Of a stretch of DNA of 49,661 nt, positions 1 to 40,536 are shown one piece after another. The position numbers and the translations under genes are program-made. The notes under the pieces are model-generated. The model was not told the origin of the DNA. It did not search any database and saw only the letters and a program-made list of their open reading frames with translations. This DNA comes from a virus. The stretch's first letter is position 1. The number at the start of each line of letters is the position of its first letter. Where the stretch lies: positions 1 to 49,661 of IMG/VR virus record IMGVR_UViG_3300025849_000054. One strand, 5' to 3'.

Positions 1-1464
1 ATACATTTTTGCTTTTTCACCACTGCTGTTTTTTGCACGTTTGCGTAATGCTGTAACACTACCATTGCAACTTGCTCCACTACGTTTTACTCTACCTGGT
101 CTGCTTTTGCCTTTCTTTTTACCATCGTCAAAGTTTTCTACAATGCTTGGGTTTATTTCTTGTGCTGTGAATTGTTGCATTAGTTCAACAATGTCATCAT
201 CATGGTCCAATATTTTATAATCAGCATCAACTATTAGTGCTACATTATCATCATAACCGTGATTCTCACCACTGAGTACATGCATGCCATTACTTAATTC
301 TATGTGATCTTCTTGATTGACCCATTGATGAATAACTGACTCTACTTCTTCATGTGGAAGTTTACCTAACTTGAAACCAGGACTTAGTTTTGTTGGTGGG
401 TTTCCGGGTTGTAATTTATTTAGTGCCTTATCATATAATGCAGTAAATGACACTTGTTTATTAGACTTTCTATATGCATCCTTGGCCATTTGCAATGCTT
501 TGTTGTGTATTTCTGGCGTTGATGCCTCGTCGCTTAGATGTTCGACCATTGTATCACTAGTGGTATGGCTAAATTGTTTCATTAATAATTCAATAGGCAC
601 ATTTACTTTTATTGCATCTACTTTTTCTATGCCTAATAATCTAGCCGCATCATATCTATGATGACCATTAACCAAGTAATTGTTTTTATCTAGTATAAAA
701 GGCTTGTCTTTACCGTGAAAGTCTTCTGCAACTTTTTGTGCTAATCCTGGTACTCTATCTGTTTGAACTGGTTTAATATTTGTTACACTTATTTTGCCTT
801 TTTTATAAGGTATATCATTATCTATTAAATCTGGTTCTTTGACTTGCGGCATTTCATTTCTACTAAAATGCTTGTCGCTAATGTTTTTATCTAAATCTGC
901 TATTGCTGATTGTGTTAATTCAGATAATTTTATTACACCGCATCCTGCTCTATCACCTGCGTTGCCTGTTTTTAAACTTTCCTCATCGCCGCCTTTGCCT
1001 AAGTCGTCTTCGTCTTGGTGTACAACAACTGCTCTACCAACTATGCTTGTGGCACCTTGTAATTGAATTGTTTTGGATTTTATTTTAAATTCTGCTACAC
1101 CTTTGCTGTTGGCTTCTATATTTCCTAAGTCGCCGATATGACCATTATCTACATCGCCATGATCGACACCATGCGGATTATAATGACCGCCTGCACTATC
1201 GCATCCATCACTGAGATCGCCAAATTCGTGTATGTGAAATCCATGTAAGCCTTCTGTTAAGCCGCTTATAGTACCGCTTATAATTGTTGCTTTACCTGGC
1301 TTTTGTACAAAATTAATTATGCCTTTAGCATCGCCGTGTTCTAGTACTGCAACTGCTTTTATAGGCTTTTCTGCTTCTGATAATTGCCTTAGCCTTTCGC
1401 AACTGCATTCGGTTGCTTTTGTTCTTGGGCATTGTCCAGGTTTAGTTACTTCGTATAATCTCAT
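1..1464 (-). CDS. sodC: Cu/Zn superoxide dismutase - ParB-like fusion, 3' end beyond window
   Basis: Open frame of 488 codons from ATG at 1464 to the left edge; the stop lies outside. Residues about 40-180 are a Cu/Zn superoxide dismutase: HGFHIHEFGD (about 72), GGHYNPHGVDHG and GHIGDLGN supply the copper and zinc His and Asp ligands, and GNAGDRAGCG carries the active-site Arg. About residue 266 there is a ParB/sulfiredoxin-type motif, NGHHRYDAARLLG. The visible C-terminus is basic (VKRSGASCNGS...), a style I associate with marine phage virion proteins. The N-terminus (MRLYEV..., then a Cys-rich CPRTKATECSC) resembles phage internal protein leaders, not an export signal. ATGA overlap with the giant gene upstream places it last visible in the late operon. 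SOD identification is secure; the role of the ParB-like part is unknown. Confidence 0.88.
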   Translation of the reverse strand, partial: MRLYEVTKPGQCPRTKATECSCERLRQLSEAEKPIKAVAVLEHGDAKGIINFVQKPGKATIISGTISGLTEGLHGFHIHEFGDLSDGCDSAGGHYNPHGVDHGDVDNGHIGDLGNIEANSKGVAEFKIKSKTIQLQGATSIVGRAVVVHQDEDDLGKGGDEESLKTGNAGDRAGCGVIKLSELTQSAIADLDKNISDKHFSRNEMPQVKEPDLIDNDIPYKKGKISVTNIKPVQTDRVPGLAQKVAEDFHGKDKPFILDKNNYLVNGHHRYDAARLLGIEKVDAIKVNVPIELLMKQFSHTTSDTMVEHLSDEASTPEIHNKALQMAKDAYRKSNKQVSFTALYDKALNKLQPGNPPTKLSPGFKLGKLPHEEVESVIHQWVNQEDHIELSNGMHVLSGENHGYDDNVALIVDADYKILDHDDDIVELMQQFTAQEINPSIVENFDDGKKKGKSRPGRVKRSGASCNGSVTALRKRAKNSSGEKAKMY

Positions 1465-4400
1465 TTTAACACTGATACCTGTACTGCTGGACCATTTTGA
1501 CTGTCTGCCATATCTAAACTTGTAAATGCTAAATGCTCACTGTATTTTGGAAATTCTTCTGTTGTACAATTTACTACTTTATCATATCTCCAATTTAAAA
1601 ATATTAATCTATTGAATCCTTTTTTGTTTAACATGTATGCATAATTTTTAAATGACATTAATCCTACAAGTGTTAAGAACCTTGTCTTATCCATATTCAT
1701 AAATGAACTTGTTAATTCTGCTTCTTCTTCTGAGTCAATAACAAATTGATATGTGCTAACAATTAATTTTAAAAATTCAGCACCTACACCTTGTTTTACT
1801 TGTTCTAATTGTTGTGCTTGATCTAGTATATGAGCCTGACCCTGATTACGGCCTCCGCCAACTGCACCTTTTAAATTGTAAATTCTTAATTCTTCTGGAA
1901 TATCATGCTTTTCATAAAATGGTACTAGTTGTGATTTGACCTGTGCTAATCCACTAAACTTAAAGTCGTCAATACCGTTAACCATTCTACCGCCACCTGA
2001 CGATACCTCACCTTTAACTTCTATTTCTTCGCCATTAACTTTGATATCACCTACCGAAGCAAGTTCTACATTAGGTGACAGTAAACACAATCCAAGTTCA
2101 CCTGGCCCTCTGTTTGATCCAGATATATTAATTCTAAAGTCAAATAATTTTTCATAAAGATCATCTATAAATTCTTTAGATACTGCATCAGTTCCGACAA
2201 ACATGTCTGAAATTTTAAATACACCAGACTTGTTTAATAATTCTGTGTTTACATAATCTGCATGTCCGTAAGTTTCAACAAATGCATCTATTTCGTCAAA
2301 ATCATGATCTAGTTGTTCAAGTGATAAAACTAATTGTCTCATAATATTCTTATTAATTCTATGATCGTTTTCCTTACCAGTGTCATTATTTTTAAGTCTA
2401 TCTTCAATATCCAAATGGTCTGCAGACTCTTTATCAAGTTTTAACATTTTGTAAACTCGTCTAGCAAAATTTGGATTTTTTTCTAATGCAGTCATTATGC
2501 TGTTTAATCTGTCTTCTGTTGCATCCTCTTTGATATAACTTTCATTGAGATTAAGTTGTTTTACTTCTGCATCTGGTAATCTATTTTTTGCAAAATGCAT
2601 TAGGATGTCTCTACCACATGCTTCTGGCCCTTCTATGCTTTTTAATTGGCTAAATGCTGTCATCATCCTTGGTATTGGTAATGCTAAGTATGCCTGGAAT
2701 TGCATATCTAAATTACCAACTGGAAAATGTTTTGATAATAATTTTTTTAGTATAGCAAGTTTGTTATTGTTAGGCATGTTTTCTGTTAGTCTTTTAGTTC
2801 TTAATAATACATCTATGCCTAACAAACTTTCTGTTTTTGATTTGTCAAAGTATCCACGGTCGATCATTTTATTTAACATAGCCTGTGCCTTTACTTCGCC
2901 ATGTTGTGTTTTAAACTTGTTGTAAGTATTTTTTATATGCTGTTCTTTATTATATGATCCGGCAGGCTTTTTAACACTTTTACTTACTTTATTATATTTT
3001 CCTACTCCTAGTCTTTTCTGTTCTTTGTCTATAGTATCTAAATTTTTAAAATAACCCTCAACAATAGGTGTGTTCAATAATTCTAATTGTTTTTGTATTG
3101 GTAATTTTTCAAATCTTTCAAAAACACTAGGCATAATATTATTTACATAGGTACTGTCATCTAATTCTTTGCGGATATCTGCTTTAATTTTTTTTCTATC
3201 GTAATCTTTTGGTGATTTGTGTGCGCCAGCACCTGGCATGTTTTTGCTGTTCTTTGCTACTGGATTATTCTGCTTTGGCATTTTTGGTTTTTTTGCTTCA
3301 CCTATTTGTGTTTCGTCCATATGAGCCATAACATCATATATAATGTCACTGCTACTGCAACAATCAATTACTCTGCCACTAGCAAAGTGCCCAATTGGTT
3401 GTCCGCCTACTTCCATCTCTGGGTCTACACAATCTTCTACATCTAGGTCTTCTAGTGCTTGGTATATTGCATATTCTAAATCATCTTTGTTTGCAAATTG
3501 ATTTTCTCTTCCACTAAACTCATCTACTAATTTTTCAACACAACTGTTAGCAATAATACTTCTTTCTTCGCCTTCGTTAAACTTTTTCATATTAGTATTT
3601 ATTGTATTTTCATTTCTTGTAAATTTTTCTAATACATTTGATTCGTGTAATATACGCAACTGTTCTTGTAAAGGCAGTTTATCAAACTTGGTAAAGATAC
3701 TTTCTTGTGAAATTTCTTTTGCCGCATTTACGGCACCCATAAACGTATCAAAAGGTCCATTAAGTCTAAGTATTGCTAAAACCTCTTTCTTAAAGTTGGT
3801 GTCTTGCTGAGGATTGTTTAAAAATGCTACCAATTTATTTACTTCGCCTTTTGGTAAGTAATTCTGCATTCCCTGTTGCATCATAATATTAAACAATCTG
3901 TGTTTCCTGGCTTTATCGTAATCTGTATTTGTCCAATCTGAACTTCCGTATACTCCGCTTACATCATCGTCATCATTACCGTCTGCATCTTTTCTAAAAT
4001 AGTTACCACCACTCACATTGTAGTTGTCTCTGATATATTTTTCTGCATCTCTTACTGCGGCACCCCATCTTGCTAATCCAATTACATTTTTGCCGTTCTC
4101 GTCGGTTTCAGCAGGTCTCCAGTTGTGGTCGCCATCAAACTGTTGATATACTTTTCTCAATAAGTTTACACCCTGGTCATTTACGCCACGTTCTATTCCT
4201 AAATGGTCTGCTAAATTGCCCCAATCTGTTTCACCTGCTATGCCATTTGAGGAACCACCATTGTCGGGTTCAATACCAGCCGCTATGGCCATCTTGTCTA
4301 TGGGTTTGCCTAAATCATTTTGGTCTATGCCTACATCACCGTCAAGTACTTTTTTAAGTATATTATCTAATGCTACCTTAAAACTACCACCACTGCTTTG

Positions 4401-7400
4401 TTTGTTGGCCATTTCTTTAGCAACTACATCTTTCATTTTTGCTGGGTACTGTTCCCAATCAAATGCATCAAAACGTTTTTGCTCTGCCTCGTCATCCATA
4501 TTCTCCCAACTTATACCACTGCTTCTGTTTAGTGGTTCACCGCTTTTGGGATTTTGTGTTTCTTCATCTGGGAATAAATCGTCTTGTCCAGGTGCACCTT
4601 TTCTGCTGTCGCCTTTGTGAGTGACTTCAATACCGATATTTTTTAATTTGTGGTATACATCACCATCGCCTTGAATGAATGCTTCTTTGACATTTAAGTC
4701 CTTCCAACTATAACCATATTTGTTGTTGAATCTATTTACTATTTTTTTATAACCCTTTTTACGCCAAGTGTGATAATAGTTTTTATTTTTTTCAAATGTA
4801 TCTATAAGTTCTAAACCGTTTGTGGCATCTTCGGCATCACTCCAGTGACTGGAAGGTATAACATAAACTTTACTCTGGTTTACTTTGTCGTTAAAATGAT
4901 CTAAATTGCTATCTAAATATGCTTCTCTGTCGTCATAGTCTTCATCTGTGATAGTATCAAAAAAGTCTCGGTCTATATACACCCAACTGTGACTTGGTAT
5001 ATTAAGTTTTGCTTTTGCGTTGTCTCTGACATTCTTTTCAAAGTCTCTATTTCTTCTATCTAATGTATTTTTTGCTTGTATTTCTTGTTTAAGATTTACA
5101 AATCCTTCTTTCTGGAATATTTTATCAAATCCTGATAAGAATTTTTTTATTGCCGCAAATCTTTCTTTATGTAATTGTCTTAGAACAGCACCTTGCTCAG
5201 GCCCGTTGTTTTCTTTCCAAGCAAAATATCTATCCATATGCATAGATCCTACTACATAATCATCTATAAGAGCAGGCAAATTAAATGTTTGTTCATCTGC
5301 CTCTATTTCACTGTCTGCTTTTACAAGCCTGTCCATTACATCGTTCCAACGTTCTAAACTACTATGCGAAGCCAAGTTTGATTCTCCATCGGAGCCACGG
5401 TTGATTTGTGTGTATCCATTTTCATCTTCGGCCCAAAGATCTGGTCTAGGTTTTAAGCCTTCCAATAATTCTAATCCTAATTTGCTTACTTGTTTAGCAA
5501 TAGTTACAAATTTTTCTTTGTCTTCCCTTTCTAGATCTTTCAAATGATCTAACCTGTCTCTTAATCTCTGTGTGAGCCTCATCTGGAATACGTCTGAATA
5601 TTTGTCATCACTTTTAATATTAACATGATGATCTCTGCTTGTTGGATGTTTGTAACCTTGATATGGTTCTAAGAATTTTAATAATTCTTGTGCTGAATCT
5701 TTTGTGGTAATTCTATTGCTTTTTAATAACTCGTTTCTTACATTCCATCCACGGCCTTTCAGTTTAGCAACAAAACTATTTTCTTGTCTTTCATGAGATA
5801 ATTCTCTTAATGTGTTTTCGACATCTATTTTTTTGTTTGCAGGGGTTAAAACAACCAGTAAGTCTGCAAGTTTATCTAATTTGACATTATCTTTGCTATC
5901 GTCTGATTGATAGAACTGCCACATTTTACTGGCAATGCGGTCTACATCTTGCGGAGATAAATATTCTGGGTTTTTAATTATGTCTTGCTTGAATAAAGTG
6001 TTTATTCCTTTTTGTAATATTAATACTTTGTCTTTGTCAGAACCTTCAATGTTATGATTCTCCATACTTGAAAAAACCAGTGTTTCCATGCTATCACTGT
6101 TTAGTTGTAATTCTTTGGCAAACTTTCTAAACGACGCAATGTTTTTAGCAGTAACAGGTGCTCTGTTATTACCGTCTGCTATGTCTTTTGCTAATAATGT
6201 TACTGCTGATCCAAATCTATCTTGTGCTTTGTCTAATTCGCCTGCCGCTCTCTTGCTTGGTGACATACTGTTAGGCTGTACATATCCTTTGATTGTTTCT
6301 TCTTCTATTTCTACTTTAGTACCAGTACCTTTTTCGAAATCTTTTATTTCCTGCTTCCATATTTTATCTGCATCTGGACTACTTAATTTTTCATAGTTTT
6401 GTAAATACTCAACACTGGCACTTAGAAATTTAATTACATCAAAGTAATCTTTTTTGCCTACAATGCTCTTGGCGGCATCTATTACTTCGTGATTAACTAC
6501 TTCTAAATTTTTTAATTTTTTAGGATCTATTTCCTGTGACTTACGCAATAATCTAAATACTGCTTTAACATATTCTGGTCTAAAAGCATCTTTACTATAT
6601 CCTGCTTTCATTACAGTAGCATATCTCACACATGCTTTAACAACTTTATCATACATTGTGTTATAGTCTACACCGCCGGCAATTCTAAACTCTATAAGGT
6701 TATTTCCTGAGTCTTTATCAGTCTCGCCTTTAAAATTTATACTGTTAAACTTACCAGGGTCTATGCCTTTAGCAAGTTCTTTCTCAAATGCTTCAAAACT
6801 TTTTGCATCACCACGTTTCATGCCTTCTGCATATTTTAATACATTTTGATATTGACTTTTTGTGTAACTGTTACGCAATCTACCAAACTCTGCAAGTAAG
6901 TATTCATCACCTAATAGCAATGCCATCTTTAATTTGTTTGGTTCTGATGCCTCATCTCCCCAAAATTCATCATCGTCTGTTTTTACTAAATCTCTTTTTT
7001 CACCTTGCCAACTCATAGTAACATGTAGTCCTGTAGAGTTGTTTGTGCCAAAGTTTTTTTCACTCCAGTCAAATAAACTTTTCATTTCTGTAAGCATTTT
7101 TCTAGGTGAATCAAATACTGGCGAAATTAATTCTGCACCTGCTCCTTCATCGGCTTCTATACTGCTATCAGTTTCTACTGACCAAGCAGTTGTGGTATTA
7201 GTGGAGTCATACTCACCTATTTCCGGATAGTCTGTAAATTTACTATTATCTTTTATCCAGTTGTATAACTCATCTGCAACACCTTCAACATTGCCTTCAC
7301 TGCTACTATTATACTCATAACCATAATCATCAAGGAAACTGCTCATGTAACTGTAGTTGTCGTATATCCAATCTTCTACACTATAATCATCTCTTGCGGC

Positions 7401-8366
7401 TTCTCTGGCCTCATCGTCTAGATCACCGTCTGCAACGTCTTTTTTTAACCAAGCCAAATACTCATCTTCGTATTCTTCTTCTACATATTCTCTGACCCAG
7501 TTCATATAGTCCCAACCATCTTCCTCACGGTTTTCGTATTCTTTTGGATCGTTTTCTTCAAAATCTTTTTTGTATATTTCGATTGCTTCTGAACTTGGTC
7601 CTGCCCCACTATCTATAAAGTCGTTTAGATAGTCTTCATCTTCTCTGACCTCATTTACTTTATCTTCTATTATGTCATCTAAATATTCGTCTTGTCCTTT
7701 AGTGTACAACCAGTCTTCAAAGTTTTCCCAAACTTGATCTGGCATATCACCGTATTCGTATTCGATATCAGAAATGCTCATGTTGTCTATATCATCACTG
7801 GCTCTTCTGCCGTCTACACTATAAAAAAATGTTTCTGCTTCAAAGCCACATTTTACAGGAGCATCCAAGGCCTCTATGGCTATTTCTTTTTTGTTGAAAT
7901 TTATTTCGAATAGTTTTGGATCCGCTTCTTTGAGTAATTTAGATCTTTTTTTGAATTTTGTTAAATTTTTTTTACCAGTTAATTTTTTTAATATTTTTTT
8001 AGCAAGTGTGCTTTCGTCAATATCCATGTCATTGGCTTTTTTAAGTATATTTGCTAACTGATTTCTCAATGCAGGAGTCTGCATTGCTTTTGTAAATTGT
8101 ACATCAATTGATAATTTTGATTGTAATTGTGCTGGTGTTGGCTTTTCGCCTTGTATGGTCTTGTTTATGCCTTTGGCGGCCATTTTAGGATTTATAGGCT
8201 TACCTAACTTGGCTCCTAGTGCCTTAAAACCTTTTGCTACTTCCTTTTCTTGGTCAGGTGTGAATGGCTCCATTTCCATTTCGTCGTCATTTTTATTTGA
8301 CTGCTTCGCGTTGGAATTTGGATCTTGTATTCCTTTATTATATTCGTACAAATCGTTTATTTTCAT
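1461..8366 (-). CDS. Giant virion-associated protein with amidoligase-like domain
   Basis: 2301 residues starting MKINDLYEYNKG, a possible capsid-targeting leader (LYE). Residues about 170-590 match the amidoligase_2 (COOH-NH2 ligase) pattern: GFEAE at the start, SSIEADEGAGAELISP, GLHVTMSW and NLIEFRIAGG. A very acidic stretch (Asp/Glu/Tyr-rich, about 185-370) is embedded in it. Near the C-terminus, GPGE (about 2087) followed by GDIKVNGEEIEVKGE (about 2110) is the E...D...ExK spacing of PD-(D/E)xK nucleases. Two copies of an FxxFxKLPxQxQLxxL motif lie at about 1555 and 1745. The middle is otherwise unrecognised. It overlaps its upstream neighbour and the SOD gene by ATGA, so all are translated together from the late operon. 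Probably an internal or ejected protein; enzymatic activity is inferred only from motifs. Confidence 0.8.
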   Translation of the reverse strand: MKINDLYEYNKGIQDPNSNAKQSNKNDDEMEMEPFTPDQEKEVAKGFKALGAKLGKPINPKMAAKGINKTIQGEKPTPAQLQSKLSIDVQFTKAMQTPALRNQLANILKKANDMDIDESTLAKKILKKLTGKKNLTKFKKRSKLLKEADPKLFEINFNKKEIAIEALDAPVKCGFEAETFFYSVDGRRASDDIDNMSISDIEYEYGDMPDQVWENFEDWLYTKGQDEYLDDIIEDKVNEVREDEDYLNDFIDSGAGPSSEAIEIYKKDFEENDPKEYENREEDGWDYMNWVREYVEEEYEDEYLAWLKKDVADGDLDDEAREAARDDYSVEDWIYDNYSYMSSFLDDYGYEYNSSSEGNVEGVADELYNWIKDNSKFTDYPEIGEYDSTNTTTAWSVETDSSIEADEGAGAELISPVFDSPRKMLTEMKSLFDWSEKNFGTNNSTGLHVTMSWQGEKRDLVKTDDDEFWGDEASEPNKLKMALLLGDEYLLAEFGRLRNSYTKSQYQNVLKYAEGMKRGDAKSFEAFEKELAKGIDPGKFNSINFKGETDKDSGNNLIEFRIAGGVDYNTMYDKVVKACVRYATVMKAGYSKDAFRPEYVKAVFRLLRKSQEIDPKKLKNLEVVNHEVIDAAKSIVGKKDYFDVIKFLSASVEYLQNYEKLSSPDADKIWKQEIKDFEKGTGTKVEIEEETIKGYVQPNSMSPSKRAAGELDKAQDRFGSAVTLLAKDIADGNNRAPVTAKNIASFRKFAKELQLNSDSMETLVFSSMENHNIEGSDKDKVLILQKGINTLFKQDIIKNPEYLSPQDVDRIASKMWQFYQSDDSKDNVKLDKLADLLVVLTPANKKIDVENTLRELSHERQENSFVAKLKGRGWNVRNELLKSNRITTKDSAQELLKFLEPYQGYKHPTSRDHHVNIKSDDKYSDVFQMRLTQRLRDRLDHLKDLEREDKEKFVTIAKQVSKLGLELLEGLKPRPDLWAEDENGYTQINRGSDGESNLASHSSLERWNDVMDRLVKADSEIEADEQTFNLPALIDDYVVGSMHMDRYFAWKENNGPEQGAVLRQLHKERFAAIKKFLSGFDKIFQKEGFVNLKQEIQAKNTLDRRNRDFEKNVRDNAKAKLNIPSHSWVYIDRDFFDTITDEDYDDREAYLDSNLDHFNDKVNQSKVYVIPSSHWSDAEDATNGLELIDTFEKNKNYYHTWRKKGYKKIVNRFNNKYGYSWKDLNVKEAFIQGDGDVYHKLKNIGIEVTHKGDSRKGAPGQDDLFPDEETQNPKSGEPLNRSSGISWENMDDEAEQKRFDAFDWEQYPAKMKDVVAKEMANKQSSGGSFKVALDNILKKVLDGDVGIDQNDLGKPIDKMAIAAGIEPDNGGSSNGIAGETDWGNLADHLGIERGVNDQGVNLLRKVYQQFDGDHNWRPAETDENGKNVIGLARWGAAVRDAEKYIRDNYNVSGGNYFRKDADGNDDDDVSGVYGSSDWTNTDYDKARKHRLFNIMMQQGMQNYLPKGEVNKLVAFLNNPQQDTNFKKEVLAILRLNGPFDTFMGAVNAAKEISQESIFTKFDKLPLQEQLRILHESNVLEKFTRNENTINTNMKKFNEGEERSIIANSCVEKLVDEFSGRENQFANKDDLEYAIYQALEDLDVEDCVDPEMEVGGQPIGHFASGRVIDCCSSSDIIYDVMAHMDETQIGEAKKPKMPKQNNPVAKNSKNMPGAGAHKSPKDYDRKKIKADIRKELDDSTYVNNIMPSVFERFEKLPIQKQLELLNTPIVEGYFKNLDTIDKEQKRLGVGKYNKVSKSVKKPAGSYNKEQHIKNTYNKFKTQHGEVKAQAMLNKMIDRGYFDKSKTESLLGIDVLLRTKRLTENMPNNNKLAILKKLLSKHFPVGNLDMQFQAYLALPIPRMMTAFSQLKSIEGPEACGRDILMHFAKNRLPDAEVKQLNLNESYIKEDATEDRLNSIMTALEKNPNFARRVYKMLKLDKESADHLDIEDRLKNNDTGKENDHRINKNIMRQLVLSLEQLDHDFDEIDAFVETYGHADYVNTELLNKSGVFKISDMFVGTDAVSKEFIDDLYEKLFDFRINISGSNRGPGELGLCLLSPNVELASVGDIKVNGEEIEVKGEVSSGGGRMVNGIDDFKFSGLAQVKSQLVPFYEKHDIPEELRIYNLKGAVGGGRNQGQAHILDQAQQLEQVKQGVGAEFLKLIVSTYQFVIDSEEEAELTSSFMNMDKTRFLTLVGLMSFKNYAYMLNKKGFNRLIFLNWRYDKVVNCTTEEFPKYSEHLAFTSLDMADSQNGPAVQVSVLK

Positions 8367-10376: not shown

Positions 10377-11139
10377 ACCTTTTTCTACTTTGCCAGTATG
10401 CGGCAATGCCTGCCAACCCAGCCGCGGATTTAGGTCCTAACCTTCCGCCTGTTATTCTTGGGCCAAATTCTGCACCAACGTATGCCGATGCACCTGCTAC
10501 TGCTAAACGTTTTAGTGTTGTTTGATCGGTTGCTTTGTCTAATTCTGTGTTAGTTGCATTAACTAATTTATAATTTCTTTCTTTAGCAAATTTATTTAAT
10601 GTTTTATACAGGTCACTTCTTACTGCTTTGGCTCGCATTATGTGTAACATTTTTGTGACTGCTAATTGCTTTTGCCTATATTTTAATCTGCTCCAATCAG
10701 ATACCAATCTTCTGACATTTTGTATGACCATGTCATTAATTTTAAGTTGTCTTTGCAATCTCAAGAAGTAAATTGAATTTGGAATTTGTCCTTTTGCTAT
10801 GCTGGTCATAAACTGATGCATCAGTTGTTCGTTAAATTTATAATCTTTTTTATACTTAGAATTAATTGTGTATGCAATCATGTAATGATCGTTAGCACCT
10901 AATCTACTTGCACGATATTTTCCGTGTCTTACATTTGCATTTGCATATTGTATTGCAAATGGTCTATATTTTTTATCTTGTGCAAACACATACACCAACA
11001 TGGTTGTTACCATTAGTAATTCTGCCATATCATCTTTGGTATATGGCTTGAATCCATCAGTTGTTCTGTATAATCTACTTTCCTGTAGATCGCCTAAAAA
11101 TTGATATTGTGCTTGTTTTTGTTCTTTAGGTGTTTCCAT
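10372..11139 (-). CDS. Hypothetical late protein
   Basis: 255 residues, METPKEQKQAQYQFLGDLQES..., helical and basic in the middle (repeated Leu/Arg-rich segments at about 120-190). The C-terminus, about 205-245, is Gly/Ala-rich and mildly hydrophobic (VAGASAYVGAEFGPRITGG), perhaps membrane-interacting. Not recognised; I recall similar unnamed proteins in marine T4-like phages. Start overlaps the stop of the nucleotidyltransferase-like gene (TAATG at 11139), so the two are coupled in the 13457-10372 late operon. Confidence 0.65.
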   Translation of the reverse strand: METPKEQKQAQYQFLGDLQESRLYRTTDGFKPYTKDDMAELLMVTTMLVYVFAQDKKYRPFAIQYANANVRHGKYRASRLGANDHYMIAYTINSKYKKDYKFNEQLMHQFMTSIAKGQIPNSIYFLRLQRQLKINDMVIQNVRRLVSDWSRLKYRQKQLAVTKMLHIMRAKAVRSDLYKTLNKFAKERNYKLVNATNTELDKATDQTTLKRLAVAGASAYVGAEFGPRITGGRLGPKSAAGLAGIAAYWQSRKRS

Positions 11140-12407
11140 TATGCGCCTGGTCTCCCTGTGCCAAAGTTTTTAACACTAAAGTCTAATCTGTCGACTAATT
11201 TAATTGCGTTTCCAATATGATCAACAGCAACAAAGCCTTCTTCACCTGTGACATCATAGTCGCCTTCTTGGTTTTGTACAAACGTGTCTATTTGTTTTAT
11301 GTTTGCTAATTTTTTAATTATCATTTCTTTTGCTTTGATTAAATCTAAATACACAACGTATGCTTTTTCTATTTCTTCTTGATTGCTTTCTAAAAATTTA
11401 ATGCCGTCTATCATCAATTTTGTTTTTCTTACTTTACCGTCATCGCTTTTTAGTTTTTCAACTGCTGATTTCAGTGTGCCTTTGTACTCTGCAATAAATC
11501 TTTGAGCAAATACTTTTGGATCTTGTTCAAAGCCTACTAATTCTCTAATAATTTTATTTACACTTGCCTTAATTCTTATTCTCAAGTCATCTCCAAATTC
11601 ATTATTTTTAAGAAAGTCTAAATCTGTAACTGCTTTTAAGTTTTGATCTGCATTGTTAATGAGTTCGGCCATCTCTCGTGATTCATCTTCAGTGAAAGTT
11701 ACTTGCCCTGAGTAGTCTCTTATGATTGCATCTCTGTGCCAAACATCTGGATGACTGCCTAAACTACTTGCATCAAACCCAAACTTTGCTGACATGTCTG
11801 CTAATTCGCCGCCTCCAACATATTCTGTGTGAAACACTATGCCTATTTTAGAACGTAAAATATCTTTTGCAAGATTACTGTTTTTTGGAATTGCATATAT
11901 AATTGTATTTGGTTTAAATACTATAAATTCTTCGCCTTTGATATTTGCATCTGATATGCTGTCGTCTGTGTATAGTAAATCTCCTTGTACAATTTTTCCT
12001 TTAAAATTTAATTTTTGTAAATGCATAAATGCACTAATTAATTTTTCTTGTAAGCCTTCTGCTTCGTGATTTGCTTTGATGTCTTGTATGCTTTTGTTTA
12101 CTAACGGATTTCTTTTGTTGAATACACTTTTAGTACCTACAAAAAATTTACCGTCTGCTGGATCAGTGCCTACAAATACTGCTGGAGCACCGTCCCATTT
12201 TGTTGTTAAGTTGAATTTGGTTTTTGCACTACCCTTCAGCATCTCATGAAAACTGTAAAGATATTGTATTGCTTGTTTACCACCAGGTAACCCGTCATTA
12301 AAAATTAAATCTTCTAAATGTTCAAGGTGAGTGTTTTTGCTTTCATCTAGTCTGTGATGAATTACACATTCAGTTAAGTACCCTTTAGTAAGATCAACTG
12401 CTCTCAT
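11139..12407 (-). CDS. KxDG nucleotidyltransferase-superfamily protein (ligase-like)
   Basis: 422 residues. Begins MRAVDLTKGYLTE, a leader ending in L-x-E. Residues about 67-75, TTKWDGAPAVF, are motif I (KxDG) of the covalent nucleotidyltransferase superfamily of DNA/RNA ligases and capping enzymes. Later motifs fit the fold: a Gly/Lys strand FFVGTKS, GKIVQGDLLY (about 137-146) and GEEFIVFKPNTIIYAI (about 158-173). The C-terminal half is helical and unrecognised. I cannot tell ligase from another AMP/GMP transferase. It lies in a late virion-type operon, coupled by TAATG on both sides, not in the replication region, which argues against a role in normal DNA replication. Confidence 0.7.
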   Translation of the reverse strand: MRAVDLTKGYLTECVIHHRLDESKNTHLEHLEDLIFNDGLPGGKQAIQYLYSFHEMLKGSAKTKFNLTTKWDGAPAVFVGTDPADGKFFVGTKSVFNKRNPLVNKSIQDIKANHEAEGLQEKLISAFMHLQKLNFKGKIVQGDLLYTDDSISDANIKGEEFIVFKPNTIIYAIPKNSNLAKDILRSKIGIVFHTEYVGGGELADMSAKFGFDASSLGSHPDVWHRDAIIRDYSGQVTFTEDESREMAELINNADQNLKAVTDLDFLKNNEFGDDLRIRIKASVNKIIRELVGFEQDPKVFAQRFIAEYKGTLKSAVEKLKSDDGKVRKTKLMIDGIKFLESNQEEIEKAYVVYLDLIKAKEMIIKKLANIKQIDTFVQNQEGDYDVTGEEGFVAVDHIGNAIKLVDRLDFSVKNFGTGRPGA

Positions 12408-19792: not shown

Positions 19793-20256
19793 TTAAATAT
19801 TTCCTTTATTTCTTTTTCATCAACACCACTTGTTTCTGCTAAGTCTTTTAACTCTTCTTTGGTGTTAATACTTAGCAACAATTCTACTTCATCGTTTTTT
19901 GCTAACGGAAATATTTGTCTAATTAATTCTTCGACTTTATCTTTTTTACGTTTTGCTTTGGGTACCTTAACAAATGGATGAAATTGACTTTTGCCTACAC
20001 CTGCTAGACACATTAGTTTCCATTGCAATTCTGGGTGTTTACTTACGTCACTCCAGTTTGTATTCATAAACTCATTAATCATTACTAGATAATGTCCAGC
20101 AAATTTGCCTTGTACACTACTTGCATATCGCTGAGTCATCCACAAATTCATACTCTTGCGTTGCTCGTCTGTAAGATTAATATAATAGTTGTAGTCCTTA
20201 CGGTCTACAGCCGCCATGATATCTTTAATTTGCAGTAATGGTTTCTTTGCCATCAT
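19789..20256 (-). CDS. 62: Probable clamp loader small subunit, gp62-like
   Basis: 155 residues. The central part VMINEFMNTNWSDVSKHPELQWKLMCLAG, the basic linker FVKVPKAKRKKDKVEELIRQIFPLAKNDEVELLLSI and helical C-terminus follow the layout of T4-like gp62 (187 in T4), a poorly conserved subunit that pairs with gp44 to load the gp45 clamp. No gp44 or gp45 lies in this window, so the call rests on the sequence pattern alone. Two adjacent ATGs overlap the apt stop (ATGATG); GAAGGTG is a plausible Shine-Dalgarno. Confidence 0.5.
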   Translation of the reverse strand: MMAKKPLLQIKDIMAAVDRKDYNYYINLTDEQRKSMNLWMTQRYASSVQGKFAGHYLVMINEFMNTNWSDVSKHPELQWKLMCLAGVGKSQFHPFVKVPKAKRKKDKVEELIRQIFPLAKNDEVELLLSINTKEELKDLAETSGVDEKEIKEIFK

Positions 20257-20801
20257 TCACCTTCATATTCTATAAGTGCCCCGGCATTATATCCTTTCTC
20301 AGTTATTTTAGCAAATCCACCTAAGTCTGTCAAGTCAATTACTGCCAATACTGTTATTTGATTTTTTGGTACATTGAAATTTTCATGTATTAAATCTGCA
20401 CAGGCAATTGCTGTACCGCCTGTTGCGATTAAGTCGTCTATGATTACAACTTTATCTTCTGGAACTATATGTGTATTTTTTTGTATTTCTAAACTAGTGC
20501 TACCATATTCTAAATCAAAATCTCTCTTGTGTGTTTCGTTAGGTAGTTTACCAGGCTTTCTTGCCATTATAAAAGGTAAGTCTAGGTCTCTGGCAATTGG
20601 TGCTCCAAACACAAAACCTCTGCTTTCAACACCCACAATCTTAGTTGCCTTAAATGAAAGACTGGTTAAGTCTACAAGTGCTTTATTAAATGCTAATGGA
20701 TTTTCTATTAGGCTGGTTATATCTCTAAATTGTATTCCTGGTATTGGAAAGTCAGGTACAGTTCTTATGGCATTTTTTAGGTCTTGATAAAATTCTTTCA
20801 T
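20253..20801 (-). CDS. apt: Adenine phosphoribosyltransferase
   Basis: 182 residues, the usual length. Residues about 15-28 FPIPGIQFRDITSL, about 58-88 VESRGFVFGAPIARDLDLPFIMARKPGKLP and the PRPP loop VVIIDDLIATGGTA (about 119-132) are typical of Apt. Converts adenine and PRPP to AMP. A salvage enzyme directly downstream of metK (TAATG overlap): S-adenosylmethionine use releases adenine-containing products, so a methylation-recycling link is plausible but inferred. Confidence 0.95.
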   Translation of the reverse strand: MKEFYQDLKNAIRTVPDFPIPGIQFRDITSLIENPLAFNKALVDLTSLSFKATKIVGVESRGFVFGAPIARDLDLPFIMARKPGKLPNETHKRDFDLEYGSTSLEIQKNTHIVPEDKVVIIDDLIATGGTAIACADLIHENFNVPKNQITVLAVIDLTDLGGFAKITEKGYNAGALIEYEGE

Positions 20802-21892
20802 TAAAATAAATCAATGTGTTCCCATGGAAGTTCATCTTTACCAAAATGCCCATATAATGTTGTAGTGGTTAAGTCTAACTTAAATAAGTCAAATTTGTCA
20901 ATAATGCCTTTTGGTGTTAAGTCAACATTTTTGCTAATCCATTCTACTAAGTCTGGTCTAACTTTGCCGTCTGCATATACATAAACACTAGTAGGCTCTA
21001 CTACACCGATTGCATAACTTAGTTGTACTGTACAGTTATCTGCTTTACCAAATGCAACAATATTCTTTGCTAAGTAACGTGCCATGTATGCCGCACTTCT
21101 ATCAACTTTGGTACAGTCTTTACCACTAAATGCTCCGCCACCGTGTGGTGCATAACCACCGTATGTATCAACAATAATTTTTCTGCCTGTTAATCCTGTG
21201 TCTCCATCTGGTCCACCAATTACAAATCTGCCTGTTGGATTTATTAAAAATTCAGTTTCACTTAAATCCCAATCTGTTATTTCATCTCTAATAATTTGCT
21301 CAATTCTATCACGTACCATTTGAATACTTACATCATCGCTGTGTTGCGTACTACATACAATTTTAGTAATACCAGTTGGTTTGTTTACATTGTCATACGT
21401 CATAGTTACCTGACTTTTACTATCAGGACCTAACCAAGTTTCATTGCCTTCTCTTTCTGCTTGTAGTCTTTTTAAAATTTTATGACTGTAGTAAATAGCA
21501 CTTGGCATATAATTAGGAGTTTCATTGCAGGCGTACCCAAACATAAGTCCTTGGTCACCAGCACCAAAGTCATCTGTGCCTAATGCAATGTCAGGTGATT
21601 GACCATGTAGTTCGTTATATACTTTTAATTTTTCCCAATGGAAGCCATCTTGTTCATAACCAATATCTTGTACAACTGCTCTAACAATGTCCTCAATGAC
21701 ATCCTTGTCAAACTTGTCACTTTTGTATTCACCTGCAAGTGTAACCATGTTAGTAGTTACCAATGTTTCTACAGCCGCTCTGTGATTTTCTTTGCCGTCT
21801 ATTAAATATGTTGCTACTGCATCCGAAATCAAATCTGCGATTTTATCTGGATGTCCTATGCTAACACTTTCGCTTGTAAATTCATAAGTCAT
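20801..21892 (-). CDS. metK: S-adenosylmethionine synthetase
   Basis: 363 residues against about 384 in bacterial MetK. N-terminal ESVSIGHPDKIADLISDA (ATP/methionine site), GAGDQGLMFGYA (signature 1, about 109-120) and GGGAFSGKDCTKVDRS (signature 2, about 249-264), flanked by the conserved GGPDGDTGLTGRKIIVDTYGG. All three domains seem complete, so an active enzyme is expected. Makes SAM from ATP and methionine, here perhaps to supply phage DNA methylation or other SAM use. Coupled by TAATG to mazG upstream and to apt downstream. Confidence 0.97.
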   Translation of the reverse strand: MTYEFTSESVSIGHPDKIADLISDAVATYLIDGKENHRAAVETLVTTNMVTLAGEYKSDKFDKDVIEDIVRAVVQDIGYEQDGFHWEKLKVYNELHGQSPDIALGTDDFGAGDQGLMFGYACNETPNYMPSAIYYSHKILKRLQAEREGNETWLGPDSKSQVTMTYDNVNKPTGITKIVCSTQHSDDVSIQMVRDRIEQIIRDEITDWDLSETEFLINPTGRFVIGGPDGDTGLTGRKIIVDTYGGYAPHGGGAFSGKDCTKVDRSAAYMARYLAKNIVAFGKADNCTVQLSYAIGVVEPTSVYVYADGKVRPDLVEWISKNVDLTPKGIIDKFDLFKLDLTTTTLYGHFGKDELPWEHIDLF

Positions 21893-37659: not shown

Positions 37660-40536
37660 TTATTCTGAGCCTGTTTGACCAAGTGTTGACTGAATTCTAA
37701 TCGGAATGTATATAAATTCAACTGCTTTAGTTGGCTGAATTGCTATATCCAAGTATAATTCGTTTTTATCAATCCTTGCAGGTGTGTTATTTGTGGTATC
37801 ACAAACACTAATGAAGTCAAATAAACCTCTTAGTGTAACTAGTTCTGATAATAATTGATCAGCAACTCGTTTTACACCGGATCTTGTTATTCCATCGTTT
37901 GGTTCAAATAAGAAAGGCTTAACTGCGATATCTAATTGATATCTAATATAGTTTACAAGCCTTGCTACGTTGATTCTATCTAATGCACTTGCAGTTGGGT
38001 TAAGAGTTTTCTGCCCAAATACAACTAAGCCTCTTCCTGGGAAGTTTGCTATTGGATTAACTTTATTTGCATAAAGTGTATCTCTTTGTCCATTGTTAAG
38101 TGAAACTGGAACAAACTCGCCTGCTGTTCCGTCTACATAACCGACACTAGTTGCGTTTTGTACGATACCTCTTTGATACCCTGCTGGTGCAAACCATTGA
38201 TATGCCACATTGTCATTGAATGCAAATGTTCTTAATGCAATATGTGAAGCCGGTACAGCCACACTAGCACCATCTAAGTTTGTTGTTAAACCTGATGGAT
38301 AGTGTACTGAAACGTATGGATTACTTGTAATAAGTCCATCTTCACCGTTTTCACTTGCGTTATTGGCATTGGTTGCCCAATTTTTCATGCTTGTTGCATC
38401 TGATTTCAATCTCATTGGACTATCAGCAACAATAAATGCGACTTCTTTCTTATCTGTATTAAGAGTAACCATCTCATCTATTAATTCTGGATATCCAGGA
38501 GAGGAAATCAAGTTATAGAAATTAACTTCACTTCTTATTTCGCTATTGTTTGCTATTGCGGCCTGCAATGATTGTACAATAACTTTTCTCTGTGCTTTTC
38601 TACCCATGTAAGGTGAACCGTCTGCTTTATTGCCTGACTCACTTACCCATACATTAGTTAATGTTCCACCGCTGTATGCATATGATGTGTAGTATTTCTT
38701 AACGTTTTTACCACTGGCTCTAAAGTTCCATGCTAAAATACCAAATGGTACTGTTGCTGGTGCTATTGCGTCTGCATCAACAGATGCTGAACCATATGAT
38801 GCTAAATCTAAGAACTGAATACCGTCTGCAGACACTTGGTCTGTGTTATCAACTAGTATCCATGCACTTGATTTTCTTTTGTAAATTTTTGGATAGTTTT
38901 CCAAATCATCTGAATCAACCCAAAGGTCGCCGTCCACTAAAGAACCGCCATCGCTTTGTGTTGTAGGCTCACTCGCCGCTACGTTTACATCGTAGTCTGA
39001 AGAGTATTTTGTCCATGTTGCAGTTCCGCCAACATTTTTGTTGTACCAAATGTCAACTGCTGAACTACTGTCATACCAAAGTTTACCTGTTATTAAGTCA
39101 CCTACTGGTGCTGAAGTACCAAATTCATAGTTTTTACTATCAATTGATGCAACTGTTCCAGATACGTCTGCAACTTTAAAGTTACTGTAATTACCAGTAG
39201 CAATGTTTAAGTTTGTGAACACGTTAAATGCTACACCACCTACACTACCATTGAAAACATCAATGTCTTTACCGTCACTAGCAACGATTGTGATTTTACC
39301 AGATACATTTGATGCTACAACATTTGTAGCACTTCCTGATGCTAATGCATCATTTATATCTTGAACCATGTCGTCAACACTTACATTACCGTCGCCACTT
39401 GTATCAGTATTAAATTTAACATCAATGTTTGATGCACTATTATTAATTTTCAATCTGATGCCGTAATCTGACCCACCAGTTTGTTGTGATATTGTTGTGT
39501 CGCTTAAAGCGGATGAACTTTGTATTTGTAAACTGCTTTGACCGTTATGTCTTCTTAAAGCAAACCTTCCGTGTACATCTGAATCAAGTTTATTACCTGA
39601 ATCGTACTCTACAAAGAAAGTACCTGCATTTGGTGTAGCACCAATACTTGTACTTGCATAAGCACTTGCTGAATTGGCATAACCTTCTGCTGTTGTACTG
39701 ACCCATGAAGCAGTAGATGTGTTATAAACTTTAAGTCCATATTTTAATCCACTTGCGGCTGATGTTGTTTGTACAATTAAATCACCACTTTGAAGAGCAC
39801 TACTATCTTTTCGTGCAGTTGGTCTGTTTAAATGTGTAACAAACTGACAGTCTTTACCAGTGTTTGCTTCGAATGTACTTGCATCTGTGAACTCATGCCA
39901 TACAGATGATGCTTTGTAGAAATATACTACTTCTGCTGTTGCTTTACCGTTTTGATCTATACCTAAGATTCCAATGTCTCCAGTTTTACCTACTGATGGT
40001 TTTGGTACGCCACCGGCAGTAATTTCATCTTTTGAAAAAATCTTAGGGTCTGTTTTTTCTACATACTTGGGAATAGTCCCAGATGTGTCATATGTAAAGA
40101 TACCCCACTTAGTAGCACTTGAGTCTACCCATATTGTTGCATTTGCCGGGGATTCCGACGGTGCACTTGACAATGGTTTTAATTCATCTAAGTCTACATC
40201 TGATCTAAGAACGTATGCTCTTGAAGCCAGACCTAGAAAACTGTGTGCGGCTAATAAACCGTACTCGTTTAATTCGTAACCATGTTGTGGAGTTCCTCCT
40301 GTGCTGTAGAATTGTGGATTTCCGTATTGCTGTAACAATTCTCTTTGACTTGTAATTAAGTAAAGTTGGTTATCTGACTCTGCTTTAGAATAAGGTGCTA
40401 GACCTGATCCATCGGGGTTAGATTTGTTCTTTGCTGTTGCGATTACAATCAAAGGTACTGTTCCAGGACCTCCAGGCGAATAAAACGATTCGTCTGATAC
40501 TGAAATGTCTACACCAGGTGATACTAATGTTGCCAT
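37660..40536 (-). CDS. 18: Tail sheath protein gp18
   Basis: 958 residues against 659 in T4. Ends are conserved: MATLVSPGVDISVSDESFYSPGGPGTVPLIVIATA, and the C-terminal handshake region with YIRYQLDIAVKPFLFEPNDGITRSGVKRVADQLL and DIAIQPTKAVEFIYIPI. The extra length is in the middle, about 130-620, including three beta repeats of the GDLWVDS type (about 131, 487, 527). Contracts to drive the tube through the envelope. Late promoter AATAAATA at 40571, leader with TAGGAGA, terminator after the stop. Confidence 0.96.
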   Translation of the reverse strand: MATLVSPGVDISVSDESFYSPGGPGTVPLIVIATAKNKSNPDGSGLAPYSKAESDNQLYLITSQRELLQQYGNPQFYSTGGTPQHGYELNEYGLLAAHSFLGLASRAYVLRSDVDLDELKPLSSAPSESPANATIWVDSSATKWGIFTYDTSGTIPKYVEKTDPKIFSKDEITAGGVPKPSVGKTGDIGILGIDQNGKATAEVVYFYKASSVWHEFTDASTFEANTGKDCQFVTHLNRPTARKDSSALQSGDLIVQTTSAASGLKYGLKVYNTSTASWVSTTAEGYANSASAYASTSIGATPNAGTFFVEYDSGNKLDSDVHGRFALRRHNGQSSLQIQSSSALSDTTISQQTGGSDYGIRLKINNSASNIDVKFNTDTSGDGNVSVDDMVQDINDALASGSATNVVASNVSGKITIVASDGKDIDVFNGSVGGVAFNVFTNLNIATGNYSNFKVADVSGTVASIDSKNYEFGTSAPVGDLITGKLWYDSSSAVDIWYNKNVGGTATWTKYSSDYDVNVAASEPTTQSDGGSLVDGDLWVDSDDLENYPKIYKRKSSAWILVDNTDQVSADGIQFLDLASYGSASVDADAIAPATVPFGILAWNFRASGKNVKKYYTSYAYSGGTLTNVWVSESGNKADGSPYMGRKAQRKVIVQSLQAAIANNSEIRSEVNFYNLISSPGYPELIDEMVTLNTDKKEVAFIVADSPMRLKSDATSMKNWATNANNASENGEDGLITSNPYVSVHYPSGLTTNLDGASVAVPASHIALRTFAFNDNVAYQWFAPAGYQRGIVQNATSVGYVDGTAGEFVPVSLNNGQRDTLYANKVNPIANFPGRGLVVFGQKTLNPTASALDRINVARLVNYIRYQLDIAVKPFLFEPNDGITRSGVKRVADQLLSELVTLRGLFDFISVCDTTNNTPARIDKNELYLDIAIQPTKAVEFIYIPIRIQSTLGQTGSE

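Follow-up and report, generated by a model that had tools for sequence, protein, structure and literature searches.

Examination of a 49,661-base virus record (IMGVR_UViG_3300025849_000054, possibly a fragment; hereafter, the window, meaning this entire stretch) raises the question of what a Cu/Zn superoxide dismutase (SOD) fused to a ParB-like domain might do in a phage. The genes for a tail sheath protein, terminase, UvsX, helicase and primase in the window point to a T4-like, contractile-tailed phage, in line with the original prediction, which placed the fusion in a phage. The SOD-ParB gene lies close to a head structural gene and, judging from this position, is plausibly a late gene. Not mentioned in that prediction are the Cys cap, the cleavage-like site, the CTS-like N-terminus, the shared tag, the fusion to the giant upstream protein in a relative, and the separate occurrence of SOD and ParB. 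The interpretation that we tentatively favour, at somewhat less than even probability, is that the intact, cytosolic-type SOD would be a capsid-packaged, ejected polyvalent cargo module of T4-like phages.

The SOD-ParB gene and its surroundings

The relevant features, all on the minus strand, are as follows (the arrow marks a predicted cut).

1..1464 (-): SOD-ParB protein, first 488 of 676 residues; the frame is open at the window edge
1447..1464 (-): N-terminal signature MRLYEV (M[KR]xx[EDQ][FLIVM]), resembling a capsid targeting sequence (CTS)
1399..1431 (-): three-cysteine cap CPRTKATECSC, residues 12-22
1372..1383 (-): prohead-protease-like site LSE↓A, residues 28-31, immediately ahead of the SOD fold; predicted cleavage
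919..1359 (-): Cu/Zn superoxide dismutase domain, residues 36-182
460..909 (-): ParB/Srx-fold domain, residues 186-335
655..669 (-): NGHHR nucleotide-site motif, residues 266-270, invariant in 48 relatives
100..459 (-): variable middle region, residues 336-455, differing in length among close relatives
1..99 (-): start of the basic tag, KSRPGRVKRSGASC...YHWCANMKSGKKK, residues 456-512, interrupted by the window end
1461..8366 (-): giant upstream gene, 2301 aa, MKINDL start; fused to SOD and ParB in the relative L034
8363..8641 (-): very basic 92-aa protein of the same gene run, starting M-K-I-V-E-V, then VMEA
11139..12407 (-): DUF6267 protein, MRAVDL start; DUF6267 is fused to SOD in L043

The complete protein, 676 aa long, is encoded in an IMG/VR contig that is identical to the window over the shared part (L002:6001-8031). 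In this protein, the basic tag (456-512) is internal and is followed by a 160-aa domain; thus, of the basic tail originally predicted, the basic segment is there but its C-terminal position is not, although most relatives do end with the tag. A single ATGA holds both the start of the gene and the stop of the 2301-aa gene ahead of it. Structure prediction for the full protein, proposed earlier as a check, was confident only in the SOD and ParB domains (mean pLDDT 59.7; below 50 in the cap), and we accordingly make no structural claim for the cap, the middle region, the tag or the C-terminal domain.

An intact dismutase of cytosolic type

The Pfam family Sod_Cu matches residues 47-178 with an E-value of 8.5e-44 (149.6 bits against a gathering cut-off of 28.9), and the best PDB matches, by sequence as well as by fold, are animal SOD1 structures. 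All the ligands (H46, H48, H63, H71, H80, D83 and H120 in human numbering) are present, along with R143 and the C57/C146 disulfide pair, and every metal ligand, R143, D124, T137, G141 and C57/C146 are invariant in 52 of the 52 distinct homologs, and the claim of an intact SOD with all metal ligands and the active-site Arg holds. Pairwise dN/dS is about 0.05-0.09 (Nei-Gojobori script), and the SOD evolves under purifying selection. The sequence strongly suggests, but does not prove, that the encoded enzyme is catalytically active. A metal-carrying or other non-SOD role, with the fold retained as a Cu/Zn reservoir or sensor and catalysis irrelevant, appears very unlikely: the unusual CxC-containing cap does suggest special metal handling, but the disulfide and residues R143, D124, T137 and G141 show the same invariance as the ligands.

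A hydrophobic N-terminal leader above the threshold was detected in none of the 45 distinct phage SODs, compared to 70 of the 72 bacterial relatives; by this comparison, the phage SOD is of the cytosolic type, without an export signal, as had been proposed. A tree built with 72 bacterial SODs plus human SOD1 places the phage sequences in a single clade (support 100/95); they connect to human SOD1 through long branches, and no origin is read from that connection. The lack of a signal peptide and the separation from the bacterial SODs rule out the prophage SodC type. The SodC proteins of the prophages Gifsy-2 and Fels-1 are likewise phage-encoded Cu/Zn SODs but are only about 30% identical, whereas the family described here lacks a signal peptide and stands as a separate clade relative to bacterial SODs; the Gifsy-2 protein carries an annotation as precursor and virulence determinant, and we take it to be exported.

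In an alignment-based scan, at least 262 IMG/VR stretches were found to encode relatives of this SOD, many with the same ParB fusion, the sequence collections overlapping such that contig counts are not counts of independent lineages. Recurrence of the fusion in these contigs also settles the concern raised in the original prediction that absence from relatives would point to an assembly chimera. An assembly chimera, which is ruled out by this recurrence, or a dead remnant can be given practically no credence: the open reading frame (ORF) is interrupted by the window end, but the same fusion is found in many independent contigs and dN/dS is well below 1. Among the 80 best matches from 84,980 bacterial and archaeal genomes, the phage-form SOD was found at four loci only, involving three marine-type MAGs (Pelagibacter, TMED41 and MED657 bins) in which the neighbouring genes are phage-like. 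The isolated phages in the collection yielded only distant annotated SodC proteins of the prophage or Acinetobacter/Acetobacter type and no close relative. Thus, uncultured viruses commonly carry the family, and the isolates examined lack it. In the open-access library searched, no earlier description of such a phage SOD came to light, including in marine or pelagic phages.

The ParB-like partner and mosaic architectures

The second domain is matched weakly by PHROG ParB families; a profile-to-PDB search retrieved a ParB-N nuclease at 1.5e-5 and SerK at 0.009. Predicted with 48 relatives, the domain attains a pLDDT of 85.6, and a Foldseek search with this model returned ParB-N at 3.8e-5 and also Noc, Srx and SerK. 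The relatives were collected by an alignment-based search, a single-sequence search having returned close kin only. Residues P47, Q49, G82 and R85 are invariant and R52 is nearly so; P-x-Q..R and NGHHR are conserved, and the P-x-Q..R and GxxR elements are what we take to be the nucleotide motifs of the ParB/Srx domain. The predicted fold and the invariant NGHHR corroborate the initial assignment of a ParB-like domain with a ParB/Srx motif.

The phage domain shares the fold and the GHHR-type nucleotide-site motif with SerK/SbnI, Srx and ParB, but differs from SerK in the invariant Gln at the position of the catalytic Glu30, and from Srx in the absence of the catalytic cysteine of GGCHR, all relatives having NGHHR. 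A serine kinase is therefore unlikely, and a Srx-like peroxiredoxin repair partner for the SOD is ruled out by the missing cysteine. Given these substitutions, ParB-type NTP binding is more likely than kinase or reductase activity. The suggestion that the fusion might modify DNA or nucleotides draws on the ParB part only. About half of the ParB ORFs found are without SOD, so the pairing is not obligatory, and a clear homolog of the domain lies within the giant gp60 of Pseudomonas phage H66, whose annotation describes a structural protein confirmed by mass spectrometry.

Some of the SODs stand alone, and others are joined to ParB, to a 5'-nucleotidase-type domain plus GH19, to DUF6267, or to DUF5824/DUF5754; comparison of these architectures shows the SOD to be a movable module of mosaic proteins. 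Its partners ParB, GH19, the nucleotidase and DUF6267 are typical of polyvalent or lytic cargo. In one relative (L034:1-7197), a homolog of the giant upstream ORF and the cap-SOD-ParB arrangement form a single 2398-aa frame. The 2301-aa protein itself (window 1461-8366) has no Pfam, PHROG or NCBIfam match and is conserved, at 31-99% identity, immediately ahead of the SOD-ParB genes of many contigs; by eye only, some stretches of it look like amidoligase motifs.

These proteins resemble the polyvalent proteins of phages and conjugative elements (Iyer et al. 2017, PMC5512222) in being multi-domain mosaics with a ParB/Srx-family domain and lytic-enzyme fusions, and in their late or virion context with proposed packaging and ejection. 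Because disparate enzyme domains are exchanged within one polypeptide, they fall within the architectural definition of polyvalent proteins given there. Unlike polyvalent proteins, the SOD mosaics contain no MPTase or helicase domain that we could recognise. Relative to the published polyvalent proteins, in whose description (PMC5512222) the word superoxide does not occur, the additions are the SOD module, the Cys cap and the basic tag.

About half of the listed SOD loci lack ParB, and many of these carry stand-alone genes, 182-212 aa long. A gene of the flavodoxin-like/FMN-reductase type (MKFIIYNGTLKADAESNT...) directly follows a stand-alone SOD in L054, L056-L059, L067, L104 and L105, a possible redox gene pair. 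Such genes bear on the main rival to the packaged-cargo reading, which equally requires an active enzyme, namely that the SOD is an unpackaged intracellular antioxidant made during the late phase of infection that keeps the stressed host metabolically alive, with the tags serving otherwise. The stand-alone SODs fit a plain intracellular role equally well and so count against packaging; the adjacent flavin-reductase-like genes suggest a small redox unit, and the lack of an export signal is also compatible with this role. However, a purely soluble antioxidant has no need of fusion to large multi-domain proteins, and the SOD has its N-terminal signature and C-terminal tags in common with the neighbouring large mosaic proteins. 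On balance, the intracellular antioxidant is a possible but rather improbable explanation.

Terminal signals and a putative packaging route

The signature M-[KR]-x-x-[EDQ]-[FLIVM] starts 58 of the 618 nonredundant complete phage genes of the loci, as against 3.9 +/- 2.1 in shuffled sequences, and the same pattern occurs only 2-5 times at other offsets. Among the signature proteins, [ILVM]xE by residue 25 is found in 43 of 58 (193 of the 560 others), and strongly basic C-terminal ends in 16 of 58 (36 of 560). The basic C-terminal tag SRPGRVKRSGASC...YHWCANMK, common to many otherwise unrelated phage proteins, was identified in 110 ORFs, 77 of which end within 6 aa of it; the distinct tagged bodies include the N-terminal signature in 37 of 48 cases, the SOD in 19 of 48 and the NGHHR motif in 32 of 48. 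No match to the tag was detected among the isolated phages in the collection. Two tagged ORFs consist of little beyond signature and tag, mini-proteins of 66-67 aa with the signature and the basic Cys tag (L026:5276-5476; L080:8147-8350), which hints at a tag able to function on its own. Additional short proteins with the same N-terminal signature have other basic tails (INCNNPKGFSQKAHCAGRKKK; L106/L107:7308-8510), which suggests several tag families.

A parallel is offered by the T4 internal proteins, for which the CTS function is known (PMC3012670, PMC9958956). In the T4 record, both IPII and IPIII start with MKTYQEFIAEA, or MKTYQEFIAE↓A with the cut marked. Much as in IPII, IPIII and Alt, a short N-terminal M-K/R...[ED][FLIV]..E signature precedes a putative Glu cleavage site, and the cargo varies while the signal is shared. 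In the phage SODs, however, the signature is offset by one position from the T4 CTS, with [ILV]xE present downstream, the propeptide is longer, a basic C-terminal tag is added, and processing is predicted.

Between the signature and the SOD fold lies the cap, C-[PEQK]-[RKV]-T-x(about 4-5)-C-x-C, present in 52 of the 52 distinct members with the T and all three C invariant. It was found before an SOD in 92 of 92 occurrences, and nowhere else, among about 3900 ORFs of the scanned loci; these loci were chosen for holding SODs, and the check covered all their other ORFs together with two longer genomes. For the ORFs scanned, a general phage module is thereby ruled out. By analogy with the CxC of eukaryotic CCS (PMC6383938), the cap may help to load copper or to form the disulfide; alternatively, it may bind zinc or be part of a targeting propeptide. 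The likeness to CCS is an analogy only, a CxC adjoining an SOD-fold domain: CCS combines an MxCxxC domain I with a C-terminal CxC, whereas the phage protein has no MxCxxC domain and only an N-terminal C-x7-CxC, on an apparently active SOD.

Immediately ahead of the SOD fold, the cap gives way to [ILV]-x-E in 52 of 52 members, with A or S as the next residue in 47 of 52. A cut between E and A would leave the N-terminus almost exactly at the start of mature human SOD1. Cleavage after Glu is the rule of T4 gp21 and related prohead proteases (PMC5694885, PMC7411985), and from the resemblance to this rule we infer that [ILV]-x-E↓[A/S] is a prohead-protease-like site. Pfam searches for gp23 and the S77 protease produced no match in 15 related records, nor in the positive controls, and hence are uninformative.

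The route that we infer, from packaging and cleavage through ejection to enzyme activity and the timing and target of action, would run as follows. The MRLYEV signature and the basic tag would steer the protein into the prohead core, where the prohead protease would cleave [ILV]-x-E↓[A/S] directly ahead of the first SOD strand, in the manner of the T4 internal proteins. Loaded with metal, the SOD would be packed together with the ParB-like NTP-binding domain and the DNA, and ejected along with them; from the very onset of infection it would clear superoxide in the host cytoplasm, while the ParB domain would act upon host or phage DNA. The arguments for packaged cargo are that the SOD is intact, constrained and signal-less and that the phage sequences form one clade; that the N-terminal signature is enriched, goes with basic C-terminal ends, is carried by most of the distinct tagged proteins and resembles the start of T4 IPII and IPIII; that the domain partners are typical of polyvalent or lytic cargo; that, as indirect evidence, a ParB homolog lies in H66 gp60, mass-spectrometry-verified by annotation; that the giant neighbour is fused to SOD-ParB in L034; and that a Cu/Zn SOD is packaged in a virion elsewhere, in chlorovirus PBCV-1 (PMC7019647). 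A more elaborate version, which we consider doubtful, has the cargo shipped as a self-maturing holo-SOD: the cap would load copper and form the disulfide in cis, in a CCS-like manner, the cut at [ILV]xE↓A would occur on head maturation, and the active dismutase would enter with the genome and neutralise an infection-triggered superoxide burst.

The PBCV-1 protein, A245R, is an active, late-expressed, virion-packaged Cu/Zn SOD associated with less superoxide in infected cells (PMC7019647). It is likewise a virus-encoded SOD1-type enzyme, but of an algal virus and with no fusions described there, in contrast to the cap, tag and fusions of the phage SOD. With this precedent, protection of the virion or the infected cell from superoxide, as initially envisaged, is the leading, if unproven, idea. 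The SOD might also stay in the virion, where it would keep superoxide or metals from damaging the packaged DNA in sunlit water, or would serve with ParB as DNA-binding packing modules. The basic tag, the head-gene neighbourhood and the packaged PBCV-1 enzyme (PMC7019647) are compatible with such a role. The strict conservation of the catalytic residues argues for catalysis rather than structure. Moreover, superoxide arises mostly in respiring cells, and we regard retention in the virion as unlikely.

If the packaged-cargo reading is correct, an antioxidant enzyme would join the known repertoire of phage-delivered cargo, and phage entry into bacteria would seem to involve superoxide as a hazard or a defence. 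The combination of signature, basic tag and Glu site would then allow the packaged cargo of uncultured T4-like phages to be listed from sequence.

Elsewhere in the window, the tail sheath protein (37660-40536) is very long, at 958 aa, and belongs to phrog_10581, whereas ordinary sheaths belong to phrog_23. The replication region includes a metabolic-looking gene pair, 20801-21892, encoding a 363-aa protein of phrog_1569 (unknown function), and 20253-20801, encoding a protein of 182 aa in which inspection by eye suggests a likeness to adenine phosphoribosyltransferase.
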